NCBI GenBank assembly: GCA_004123355.1
Contig: SCHM01000005.1
Coordinates: 124,001-188,000 of the forward strand
DNA: 64,000 nt
Direction of reading: 5' to 3'
Source of the DNA: Amphirosellinia nigrospora
Lineage: Eukaryota; Ascomycota; Sordariomycetes; Xylariales; Xylariaceae
This document shows, in pieces, positions 4,398 to 35,500 of this stretch. The position numbers were made by a program, and so were the translations under genes. Under the pieces are notes generated by a model that saw only the letters and a list, made by a program, of their open reading frames with translations, did not search any database and had not been told where the DNA came from. Positions within the stretch are counted from its first letter, which is position 1. Each line of letters opens with the position of its first letter.

Positions 4398-6375
4398 TTA
4401 CTTAAGTGGTATTAAGTGCGCGTCAAGCTCCAGCTCACGCACCTTGAGGCCGGAGTCGATTTGCGAGACTAGCGTCTGGTTGTTGAAATAGTTGTTCCAT
4501 GCGGCGCAGTTGTCGGCATACGCCTTCTGCTGCGCGGCACTGATCTGAGCCTTTTGCTCGGACACGCGCTCCAAGTAGGTGAGCGCCAGCCCGTTCGAGG
4601 CGTGCCATGCGATGTGACAGTGGAACAGCCAGGCGCGGGGTTATCCGACTTGAAGGCCAGCACGTTCCAGCCCATGGGTGGCAGCACTATTATATCACCG
4701 CAGTCAATAACATGCACTAAGGTGATTATTATTCAGGGGTTTCTGGTGCATACGGGGGCGGGGGTGGGGATGCCCTGGAAGTCAATTTACGGTTTAGGCA
4801 CGTGTTAAGGGGATGAGTATAAGACTCCAGCGGACTTACTAGTGACGTCGCGGCGAGTGGGATTTGTAAAGTTGAGCGAGGCAACGTCGGCGGCCGTGAA
4901 GAAGCCCGCGTTGGGGGCCGAGGTGCCCAACACCAAAAGTCGTGCCCGTGCAGGTGCATCGGGTGCGGCCCTGTCGATGTGCTCTCAGTAACCCAGTACG
5001 TCCACACGTTCTTTTCGTCGATAGTGATCAGGTTTTCGGATTTCGGGTAAGAAGTGTTACCGGACAGAACGTAGTCGATCACCGGTCTATCCCAGTCTAC
5101 TCTTATCGACGAGTTATAAATTGAAGACCCGTTGATCACCCAGTGCACCGTCGGCGTCGACACCGAGGTCATCACTACCGTGTTGTCCTCCGTCTGACCG
5201 AATGTCGCCGAGTTCGCTGCCTGTGACACTATGGGCTCGTACAGTAGGCTGTCTTGGCACCCCGAGTTGGCGGGCACTATTCCGGCCTCCGTCGGGTTCC
5301 CTTCGGCTACGTTGGTGTAGTGCACGATGGCCGCGGGAACGGGTTGTCCGAGACGCCACACTTATTCGCCACCGGCATAGTCACGTTCATCCAATAGTTG
5401 CCCGCCTCCCGGTTCGCTGTAATGAGGACGTGCGCGCGCTGCCCTATGGCGAGGAAGAGGTTGTCGGTCGTGATCGGCTTGACGGGGACGAGGTCCGTCT
5501 CGATCACCGTCAGGTTGTGCCCAACGATAGATACTTGGTAGTGATGCTGGGCCGAAGGGTTATACAGACGCAGAAGATGCGTCTTGCCGGGCGTTAGATT
5601 GATAGTCGAGTAGGCGCCGCCATTTCCGGACGGGTTGACATTTGTCCCATTGAACATAACATTGGCACTCGTCGGGCCGGACGCCCCAAGCTGGCTGGCC
5701 TTAACGATCTCCTCTGCCGACGCCAGGTAAAAGTCGTTGATAGGATATACGCCGAGGTCAATGTCATAGTTGGCTGAAGAAGGGCCGTTGATCTGCACGG
5801 CGCCGAAGACGCCGTTGGCGTACTGTGACGAGAAGTGCGAATGGTACCACGTTGTGCCGTACTGCGTCAGTTTAAACGTGTACGTCTTGCTTCCTCCGGG
5901 CGGAATGGGACACTCGGTTATGCCATTGGTGCCATCCTGTAGATTGGTGCCAAGCTGGCGGAGGCCATGCCAGTGGATCGAGGTGCCATTGAAGGTCAGC
6001 TTGTTGGTGACGGTTACAAGAGACGGTGTCGCCCCAATCCGCCGTAATAGTTGGCCCGGGATACATGCCATTGATGAGCATAGCGCTGTCCTTGACCTCG
6101 CCGTCAGGAGCTGTCCAGTTGGTGAACTCTTCAAGCGTCCAGCTATACTATTCTCGCGCACCAGCGGCATGATCAGAGGCGAATGACACTGTACACAAAG
6201 GGCTGAGGACAGATCGAGTCACACCAGGCGGCGTGCTCAATTCATAGTCAGTGTTGATGTCGAACCCGTGAGACCAGCAGGCTCGATTGTTGGCAGCTTG
6301 GCATGAGGGAGCACCTCGACCGAGTCCGACAAGGAAGCCAGCCACGATGCCAGCGAGGCGAAAGAGAGAACGCAT
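4398..6375 (-). CDS. Laccase (secreted multicopper oxidase)
   Basis: A blue multicopper oxidase that oxidises phenols with reduction of O2 to water, acting outside the cell. The chain starts MRSLFRLAGIVAGFLVGLG, a signal peptide, followed by CWSHGFDINTDYE as in ascomycete laccases. All four copper motifs are visible in order: HWHG (about 5975), WYHSHF (about 5845), HPMHLHGHDF (about 4950) and, after a frame slip, HCHIAWH (about 4615). Likely introns are 6210-6148 and 4839-4687; the second joins RRDVT to MLPPMGWNVLAF. The frame slips by one base near 6020, 5338, 4937 and 4638; the last three look like one lost base. The stop is at 4398-4400. Length and motif order match full-size laccases, so function is lost only if the slips are real. 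Confidence 0.9.
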
Positions 6376-30598: not shown

Positions 30599-32099
30599 CT
30601 AAGGAATAACTCTGAATAATACCCCAATACTTGAAAGGGTCGTGGGCTTGGCAATGGATTCGCAAGGGTGCTTTATGCGACAGTCTACTGAAGCCCAGCT
30701 CCAAGACGGGCCCGGTATTCGGTCGGGATGTGACGGCGCACGCCCGTGGCCTCCCACGCGAGACATCGCGAGAGAAATTTGCTCCATATGCCGCCTAAAT
30801 AGTTGCCCAAGCCGTCGCTGAACACGTCTGCCAATGCGGCGATAGCAGGCAACTTGTCACTTGCATGTGTCAAATCTCGCCCCGAATACTCGGTGACACA
30901 GTGAAGCCATGCACGCAAAGCTTTGTCTAGCTGATCCTCATCAGCAGGTTGAGCCAAAGTCCTTTCCTTCTTGCGAAGCCATCTGTCGATATGGCCGAGA
31001 ATGTCATGTTGACGCTTATCTAAGGACTGAACAGAGTTGCTACTATAGATATCATTAATGCGCACCTCCGGCTTTGAGGATTCGGTCCAGAATTCCTGGG
31101 CGCACTCCCATAGCATGCCATATGGTGTGTAGTGAAGAATCCGAGTAGCCATGATTCGCTCCTGCGCGCACCAGCTCCGAGTGTTCATTGGACACATGTC
31201 TATAATGCGTCTGAAAGAGTTCTCGTTGTCGAGGAAGGCTTCGCTCACAGAGTATGCCGCTTCAACACCAAGTCGAGGCGTGACCAATGATGGTCGATAC
31301 CGCAGGAACCCTTCGTCGCTATTTGTCGCAAAGGCAGCAGACAGGACCAAGCTAGCAGACGTATATACTTCTGCCATTCTCGGAGCTTGTTCCTGCCAGT
31401 CTTCTGCTGAGTCTTGCACGATACACAGTGCATCAATCCAGATATATCGGTAGCCAAGGAGCCTAGTAATTTTGAGTGCGTCTTGGAAATTTCGGGATAG
31501 CGAAGATGGATCAATGCCTTCCTGGCGCCACTCCATCTCGTTTTCCCATAATAGTGTCTTCATCGGCCTCTTTCCCCAGCAGTGTGTCAAAGCAACATAT
31601 GTACCTGTTGCTCCTCCCGTGATGCAAAGAACAGGCCGTTTGTTCGCGTCTGTGGGCACCTCAATCACCCTCTTCGGTAGAGTGACTTCTTCTCGGCGTG
31701 CGCAACCATGCGCGAGGCAGTCTTTGGTCCAAGACCGCACCTGTTGTAGACAAGAATCGACAGTCGGGTTCTTGGGAATAAATATGTCCTTGGGACGGCC
31801 AGAAAATGATGGCTCGGGCCAGTGGACTAGCTGGATCCTGTTAGGCTTGGACTGAGGACTATCATACCAGATATTCCCAAATGCGCTGGGGGCTCGTGCT
31901 CGACTTGCAGAAAAGCAGGGACATCGGGACCAACCACGCTCCCCGACGGAAGCGTTACTTCGAGCAGATCTCTAAAAGTTCGACAGCCATCGCAGCCGTG
32001 GGTGGCATTGTGTTGGAGTTGCGAGCAGTTTGGTAGGCAAAGCCTTTTGCCAACATCGTCGCAAGGCGAAAATGAGGCACAGAATTCGCAAAGTGGCAT
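30599..32099 (-). CDS. HET-domain protein
   Basis: A heterokaryon-incompatibility protein of standard size. It starts MPLCEFCASFSPCDDVG with paired Cys and CDGCRTFRDLLE, as in many HET proteins. The HET domain follows: TYVALTHCWGKRP, YRYIWIDALCIVQDSAEDW, MAEVYTSASLVLSAA, RSWCAQERIMATRILHY. The C-terminus has LPAIAALADVFSD and PSWSWASVDC, then ends at 30599. Two reading-frame changes separate the N-terminal piece, the main 351-codon frame (31740-30685) and the last piece. The C-terminal tail after the WSWAS motif is short (about 40 residues), so part of the usual tail may be missing. It is convergent with the kinase gene. Confidence 0.88.
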
Positions 32100-34710: not shown

Positions 34711-34865
34711 ATAGAAGCATAACCAAACGGAGCCATTGCAGCTCACCAGCCAAACGTGCCTCGGTATAATTACTCATGAAACTTTGCTCTGATGGGCGGA
34801 GATTGGTGGTGAATGCTCGAGTGTAGGTGAGAGCTGGCTTTCATCTATAGTTGTTGTTGAGGGAT

Positions 34866-35236
34866 TGTCGCGTAGAAGTGGATACATATACCGTTAATAC
34901 TCGCGGAGTATTAACGGCGTCGTTTTTATTCCGTGAGAGTTATGAGCCCGGTTCGTTCTTGAGCTGATTAGCGCAACGGTATAATGTACGATCCACTTGA
35001 CTACCTTTCCGATGGAGTACTTGAAAACAAAACTGAGGGACTAAGGGGTTCGAGTCAGTGACCGAGCAAAACAGGCAAGCTGTTTCCCTGCACTCTGGTG
35101 AAAATATAGACCACGAAGTAGCAAATCAGCGGTCCTTAGCCAGACCAGCGAATCTGGGGGGTGTGTCGCGTAGAAGTGGATACCTATACCGTTAATACTC
35201 GCGGAGTATTAACGGCGTCGTTTTTATTCCGTGAGA
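34866..35236 (+). mobile_element. TRIM-like miniature LTR retroelement, Copia-type primer site
   Basis: Two 73-bp direct repeats (34866-34938 and 35164-35236) differ by one base and start TGTCGCG. The element is flanked by a perfect 5-bp duplication, GGGAT, at 34861-34865 and 35237-35241. Right after the left repeat, gttatgagcccgg (34939-34951) is complementary to the anticodon arm of initiator tRNA-Met (GGGCTCATAAC), the half-tRNA primer site known from Copia elements. A purine tract, ggggggtg (35156-35163), directly precedes the right repeat. Each LTR has a 27-bp palindrome (12-bp arms, gcg loop; left copy 34891-34917). The 225-bp interior has no coding frame. The LTRs end GA rather than CA. 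It looks whole and young, non-autonomous, and would depend on a Copia element elsewhere. Confidence 0.8.
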
Positions 35237-35500
35237 GGGATTATGTTAATATCACCGAGAAGGTCTCCCGAGGAAATGAACGTAGGCTCTGAGGCTGGGA
35301 ACTAAATCAAGCTGTCTCACTACGTGTTGTAAGAGCCAATCGGTCAACAGAGACCCTTTCTACACCAAATACGTATTAAGAAACGATTGTCCTAGGCAAC
35401 GTGCTCCACGATTCAGTCAGCGAACATGCCATCGACAATACTACATTCTATACCTCCTCTCGAACTTAGTCGGCCATAATTTTAGTAATTGCCTTTTTGT

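Follow-up and report, generated by a model that had tools for sequence, protein, structure and literature searches.

The window analysed here comprises 64,000 nt of the Amphirosellinia nigrospora genome (C7:124001–188000, within a total of 48.1 Mb in 11 contigs) and contains, at positions 34866–35236, a unit of 371 bp bounded by two short direct LTRs. In its surroundings, a frame with a HET domain (30688–31740, minus strand) lies approximately 3 kb to the left of the element, and a piece of a multicopper oxidase (5310–6170, minus strand) approximately 29 kb away; the other five of the seven window frames scanned displayed no match to Pfam. The features of the unit itself are collected in Table 1.

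Table 1. Features of the 371 bp unit, with positions numbered from the first base of the window
Feature	Position	Strand	Basis
Left target site duplication, GGGAT	34861–34865		Sequence and repeat search
5′ LTR, 73 bp, TGTCGCG...CGTGAGA	34866–34938	+	Sequence, repeat search; whole LTR with 5 bp duplication elsewhere in genome
TATA-like ATATA in LTR	34886–34890	+	Precedes palindrome in most relatives listed; putative role
27 bp palindrome/hairpin, 5′ LTR	34891–34917	+	Repeat search, shuffle test, LTR alignment
T-run TTTTT 3′ of hairpin, 5′ LTR	34923–34927	+	Sequence
Primer binding site, GTTATGAGCCCGG	34939–34951	+	Complement of anticodon arm of host initiator-type tRNA-Met
Box A-like (Pol III), TAGCGCAACGG	34969–34979	+	0 mismatches to TRGYNNANNNG
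Box B-like (Pol III), GGTTCGAGTCA	35047–35057	+	1 mismatch to GGTTCGANTCC
Polypurine-type tract, CTGGGGGGTG	35154–35163	+	Sequence
3′ LTR, 73 bp, 1 difference from 5′ LTR	35164–35236	+	Sequence, repeat search
27 bp palindrome/hairpin, 3′ LTR	35189–35215	+	Repeat search
T-run TTTTT, 3′ LTR, candidate Pol III terminator	35221–35225	+	Sequence; putative role
Right target site duplication, GGGAT	35237–35241		Sequence and repeat search

A previous sequence-only reading of this DNA had described 73 bp repeats differing by one base, a GGGAT duplication at both outer ends and a 27 bp palindrome within each repeat, all of which are borne out by the sequence and by repeat searches. The sole difference between the LTRs is an A at 34886 in the 5′ copy and a C at 35184 in the 3′ copy. 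Each palindrome has arms of 12 + 12 bp and a loop of 3 nt, and no such palindrome with three or fewer mismatches arose when the window sequence was shuffled 100 times. The interior (34939–35163) is, as also proposed, 225 bp long and non-coding: its longest ATG-started frame is 25 aa, and a frame of 37 aa enters the left LTR from outside. Two further claims stand in part. The half-tRNA primer word, GTTATGAGCCC, is indeed present directly 3′ of the left repeat, but the full site is longer, extending over the 13 nt GTTATGAGCCCGG; and the G-rich purine tract abutting the right repeat is there as CTGGGGGGTG, but contains a T and so is impure. Boxes A and B of the interior are features absent from that reading.

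With regard to copies elsewhere, 41 matches to the whole unit are present in the genome. The LTR alone returned 63 rows, 37 of which are places at E ≤ 4 × 10−8 (whole or partial, and counting both LTRs of the window copy and of locus L003), with the other 26 being the palindrome matching itself on the opposite strand. Many copies with differing 5 bp duplications had been named as the thing to look for, and these were found: exact duplications flank 19 of the 30 loci (L001–L030) examined for the LTR of what we term family A, namely 17 solo LTRs, the window copy (GGGAT) and L003 (CTATT). Four of the 30 have a duplication with one mismatch (L022, L024, L026 and L027), and seven are without one (L002, L020, L015, L021, L028, L029 and L030), with L002 and L020 being halves of one split copy. 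The 371 bp unit has the attributes of a TRIM, in that it possesses short direct LTRs (73 bp), a total length below approximately 1 kb, no coding capacity, a primer site after the 5′ LTR, a polypurine tract before the 3′ LTR and dispersed copies with target duplications. It is a genuine miniature retrotransposon that was mobile recently, and its mobility is well supported. An exact search of bacterial and archaeal contigs for the palindrome produced no matches. The notion that small size allows escape from RIP is not general, as 27 of the 30 substitutions in L003 are C>T or G>A.

Three further mini families, A′, A″ and B, display the same layout as family A. LTRs of family A begin with TG and end with GA; those of the other three end with CA. 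The A′ copy (L066, C11:28701–29081) is 381 bp long, with identical LTRs of 69 bp, the duplication ATAAT, primer site GTTATGAGCCC and tract CAAACTGGGGGGTG; one more solo LTR of this family is flanked by CCAAT. Family A″ has an LTR of approximately 70 bp, and its 36 rows consist of the query, 33 LTR-only matches (whole or part) and two matches to the primer-site region of family A; exact duplications occur at 14 of the 26 loci fetched. Its interior is known from a single chimeric copy alone (L028, C9:931272–931829), in which a Copia-X 5′ LTR (see below) is joined to an A″ interior and 3′ LTR. This chimera was rejected as proof of template switching; because it has no target duplication (AGGTT vs GATCT), DNA recombination is equally likely.

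Family B, represented by L074, is 319 bp long with an LTR of 56 bp, and possesses no blast similarity to A. At least six full-length copies exist, at 94–100 % identity, with the query and one other being identical. The rows for this family number at least 41, comprising six full-length copies, one at 74 %, four partial (two of which are halves of one copy) and 30 LTR-only, with all counts being lower bounds, as 40 of the 47 candidates were scored. Duplications were scanned at 24 loci, one of which (L094) is an A′ solo LTR, leaving 23; 14 of these have exact duplications, including five of the six copies with two LTRs found, and the sixth (L081) has a duplication with one mismatch. A further 10, more diverged, B loci include four with exact duplications. 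When joined, the flanks of L074 align across the insertion point in both L009 (84 %, 19 gap positions) and L075 (79 %, 18 gap positions), which are two copies of a Copia LTR, with the alignment gaps falling before the insertion point; an empty site for this B copy therefore exists in paralogues. Another copy (L077, C9:1015936–1016141) is interrupted by approximately 207 bp that start with TG, end with CA and have GTTAG on both sides, this insert probably being a solo LTR of another family. Diverged LTR-like stretches at L029, L030 and L103–L105 keep, with changes, a block formed by the palindrome and CGTCGTTTTT, with the preceding part being different; this pattern suggests a lineage of great age, copies that have been broken or a module held in common.

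Two observations on the wider genome arose alongside these searches. The 1.33 Mb contig C9 carries four of the at least six full-length B copies as well as 14 of the 36 DUF3435 matches in the genome (which are exon pieces, not genes), with nine of the latter on C6 and eight on C10. Together with the RIP-like substitutions and the HET-domain gene of the window, these DUF3435 matches indicate that the host is probably a member of the Pezizomycotina. In addition, the split copy of family A, L002 (C6:5328937) and L020 (C6:5260572), has its parts 68.4 kb apart, such that positions 1–26 and 23–73 of its 3′ LTR are separated, whilst its own duplication, GTACT, is found at both outer ends. The segment in between has inverted ends that are 79 % alike over 177 aligned positions (ACTAGTTC...) and is flanked by a 4 bp ATAC duplication; none of the DUF3435 matches from the profile search of the genome falls inside it. 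The mini families mark insertions with sufficient precision to have exposed, in this case, an insertion of 68 kb at another genomic location.

The complement of the primer site, with a tRNA-type continuation, occurs at five exact places in the genome. Three of these exact places were retrieved together with one near match; of the four, three are tRNA genes according to Rfam (L147–L149, 63 bits each), and the near match, L150, is not. On the basis of A54/A60 in the T-loop and three G–C pairs in the anticodon stem, we take the matching tRNA to be of the initiator tRNA-Met type. The match of the primer site to the host tRNA-Met spans 13 nt in A, 14 nt in B and 11 nt in A′.

A larger Copia element with the same LTR ends had also been proposed as a check, and the element termed Copia-X fits this description; it additionally has the tract and, if RIP is allowed for, the primer site in common with the mini families. 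It is defined by an LTR of 215 bp, of which L015 is an intact solo copy (duplication GAAAG), and is present as at least 41 rows, including same-strand pairs approximately 7 kb apart on C1 and C6. The Copia-X LTR ends are TGTCACG...CGTGACA, compared with TGTCGCG...CGTGAGA or CGTCACA in the mini families. The tract CTGGGGGTG is found in both Copia-X and the family A copy L002. At the Copia-X 3′ LTR on C9 (135836–136050), AAAACTGGGGGTG precedes the LTR and is followed by TGTCACGGATAAGTGG, the A″ counterpart being CAAACTGGGGGTG and then TGTCGCGG. Several Copia-X LTRs are RIP-like, with 33–44 C>T/G>A changes vs 0–3 per other class in L069, L070, L100 and L101, and 24 vs 0–2 in L068; those of L028 and L098 are not. 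In L068–L070 the LTR is followed by GTTATAAGCCCGGTTCG, which corresponds to the first 17 interior bases of the TRIM except for one G>A. As primer sites adjoining the Copia-X LTR are seen only in RIP-like copies, in the form GTTATAAGCCCGG, the sharing of this site assumes the G>A change.

A profile search of the genome identified 16 matches to RVT_2, none of which lies inside the 7 kb LTR pairs on C1 and C6. On C9, an uninterrupted frame of 671 aa with RVT_2 (E = 6 × 10−28, residues 311–532) has the same orientation as the Copia-X 3′ LTR and ends 1.8 kb upstream of it. In its present form this frame does not represent a single gene, because its first part crosses an A″ solo LTR, and a complete 5′ half of the C9 Copia-X copy was not found. 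For family B, the primer site is the only pointer to a helper that was identified.

Due to the many copies with different duplications, and to the larger Copia element sharing its features, the earlier description of the unit as recent, TRIM-like and primed by a half-tRNA is upheld. An alternative without retrotransposition, namely a MITE-like palindromic DNA element that is dispersed and paired by chance, would account for the strong palindrome in the LTR and for most copies being single. The single copies, however, end at TGTCGCG/CGTGAGA and not at the palindrome, full copies have a primer site and tract common to Copia-X, and at least six B copies have paired repeats, such that this explanation is exceedingly improbable. 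Instead, the structure of the unit, its duplicated and dispersed copies, the solo LTRs, the near-identical B copies and a Copia element with matching LTR ends, tract and primer site (allowing for RIP) argue that this is very probably a gene-less TRIM-type LTR retrotransposon copied in trans by a Copia element. This level of confidence does not extend to any role of Pol III; Copia-dependent retrotransposition as such is well supported. In this scheme, the TRIM RNA would be packaged by the proteins of the Copia element, priming would occur at a cleaved (5′-half) initiator tRNA-Met, followed by reverse transcription, and the Copia integrase would carry out integration.

In all four families (A, A′, A″ and B) the interior contains sequences resembling the two internal Pol III promoter boxes, for which the consensus is TRGYNNANNNG (box A) and GGTTCGANTCC (box B). 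Both are in the sense orientation, with no mismatches in box A and one to two in box B, and are 69–106 bp apart, box A starting 15–30 nt after the start of the primer site. Summed over both boxes, there is one mismatch in A, A″ and B, and two in A′ and in the A copies L002 and L003. In a strict test, with box A confined to the first 45 nt and a background of 2,804 overlapping window pieces on both strands, no piece had one mismatch or fewer, and nine had two, equal to A′. Seven Copia-type primer-site interiors scored 5–8, including L071, which may not be a Copia end. Dinucleotide shuffles of the interiors reached the observed score in 0–10 of 1000 cases (six sequences, three of which are family A), and the LTRs are without a box B (best 3–5 mismatches).

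The interiors of A and B display no blast similarity, and the tRNA covariance model of Rfam matches neither the window copy nor A′ nor B; it is thus the promoter-like box pair that is kept. No Rfam family matches the window at gathering score, the region 34800–35300 at up to E = 5 (so that no hammerhead ribozyme was detected in the LTRs), or the loci L074, L066, L082 and L072; a retrozyme or other known RNA family was accordingly rejected for the element region and these four related loci. A tRNA gene in the interior was not found at default settings, and calls at lowered ARAGORN thresholds were taken as spurious. The boxes were also considered as a copied-back primer tRNA, which was rejected since box A would then be antisense and is observed as sense. 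Alternatively, the boxes might act in the RNA, mimicking the D-loop and T-loop beside the primer site and helping placement or release of the tRNA primer. Their position adjoining the primer site in four families, in sense orientation, is consistent with such a role, but inspection by eye shows no retained T-arm stem flanking box B, and tRNA searches with default settings returned no hits, making this improbable.

Within A-type LTRs the order is a TATA-like sequence, the palindrome, CGTCG, the T-run, approximately 11 nt and then the primer site. A T-run of at least four follows the hairpin in 29 of 29 A-type LTRs, as counted on the freely aligned LTRs of 30 loci and excluding L028, where there is no A-type LTR. 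Since most of these LTRs are alike by descent, its retention is weak evidence. The same T-run is present in 25 of 26 A″ LTRs and in eight of the 10 more diverged B copies; TTTT is absent from the L015 LTR of Copia-X. Pairing in the hairpin is found in 90.6 % of cells, vs 29–54 % when slid. Double-sided changes are limited to three pairs, and the observed values of five measures were attained by 27 to 187 of 500 shuffles, so that the case from covariation for a hairpin formed in the RNA is weak.

With a likelihood approaching one half, TFIIIC on the interior boxes could help LTR-driven transcription, and the T-run of the 3′ LTR could end the RNA. The usual start of Pol III is approximately 18–20 nt before box A; here that would coincide with the primer site or lie 3′ of it, such that the RNA would be without the 5′ LTR end that is needed. 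The same T-run in the 5′ LTR also counts against Pol III use, as do the A″ interior (L028), in which a TTTTT extends into box A and another TTTT is present, and L003, which has one TTTT. A TATA-directed Pol III start is known for yeast SNR6, and a bolder, rather unlikely proposal is that TFIIIC on the interior boxes would set Pol III at the TATA-like site of the LTR, yielding RNA from after the palindrome to the T-run of the 3′ LTR. With such a start, the terminal repeat R would be only approximately 10 nt (CGTCGTTTTT), and the palindrome would become a 3′-terminal hairpin before the U-tail.

An ordinary Pol II TRIM, in which ATATA drives a start near the palindrome and the boxes are functionless remnants of a SINE of tRNA origin from which the interior arose, is a considerable possibility, if not quite an even one. 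ATATA precedes the T-run by approximately 30 nt, Pol III starting at its canonical distance would leave out the LTR, neither the window copy nor A′ nor B matches a tRNA, and the T-runs of the A″ interior and L003 would stop Pol III. Set against this, A, A′ and A″ have retained the two boxes with comparable spacing despite much divergence elsewhere, they recur in the dissimilar interior of B, and an LTR of 56 bp would leave little room for a Pol II promoter.

If the use of Pol III from the TATA-like site is correct, these families would represent a class of Pol III retroelements whose promoter lies 3′ of the primer site. The A types and B have no detectable similarity outside the primer site, yet have reached the same layout. 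Moreover, the boxes sit where the accepted LTR-promoter explanation cannot be applied directly, raising the question of how the RNA gains terminal repeats. Finally, LTRs of 56–73 bp that are mostly solo bear on the minimum repeat length for recombination.

Amongst known systems, the autonomous Copia elements Ty5 and Drosophila copia encode gag-pol, unlike the mini families. They are alike in being primed at a tRNA anticodon loop (cited in PMC10886601). GalEa and FunCo1 are, as in the present case, Copia elements of filamentous ascomycetes (PMC5445492). According to that source, GalEa has a conserved hairpin near the primer position, but no primer site there, whilst the primer site of FunCo1 is complementary to an inner part of tRNA-Lys, that of Copia-X being of the tRNA-Met type, a comparison made by description. 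Cassandra, a TRIM of plants, similarly possesses a Pol III promoter and terminator, but its Pol III part is derived from 5S rRNA and lies within the LTRs (PMC7215508).

The unit had been thought unusually small, which is not so, as SMART (FRetro129) of grasses is 292 bp (PMC3281118). SMART is further alike in its short LTR (85 bp), solo LTRs and a candidate helper with a similar primer site and polypurine tract; it differs in being restricted to grasses and, in the text available, in having no Pol III boxes mentioned. Compared with SMART, the LTRs described here are shorter (56 and 73 bp), and the whole elements (319–381 bp) are not.

Nor is the half-tRNA site unusual for such an element, as had been supposed: half-tRNA-iMet is the dominant primer type of fungal Helenus (Kojima 2024, PMC10886601). 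Helenus (TRIMp3) is the closest in kind of these comparisons in being a gene-less mini LTR element with tRNA-like boxes A and B, 5 bp duplications, mostly half-tRNA primer sites in fungi, a proposed Copia helper and solo LTRs, but its tRNA-like part is in the LTRs, its elements are 311–1263 bp and the fungal hosts in its Table 1 are Basidiomycota only (PMC10886601). The mini families have the 5 bp duplication and half-tRNA primer site, whereas their boxes follow the primer site within the interior, and their LTRs (56–73 bp) contain no tRNA-like sequence; because this defining part is absent from the LTR, they were not assigned to Helenus. A mini LTR element with boxes A and B in its interior was not found in the open-licence literature searched, so far as its accessible text extends, and a location just inside the primer site is, to the same extent, a position not seen in the described relatives found. 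The 371 bp unit works like a TRIM and, judged from its motifs, perhaps like TRIMp3, which would extend Pol III-type TRIMs to a filamentous ascomycete.
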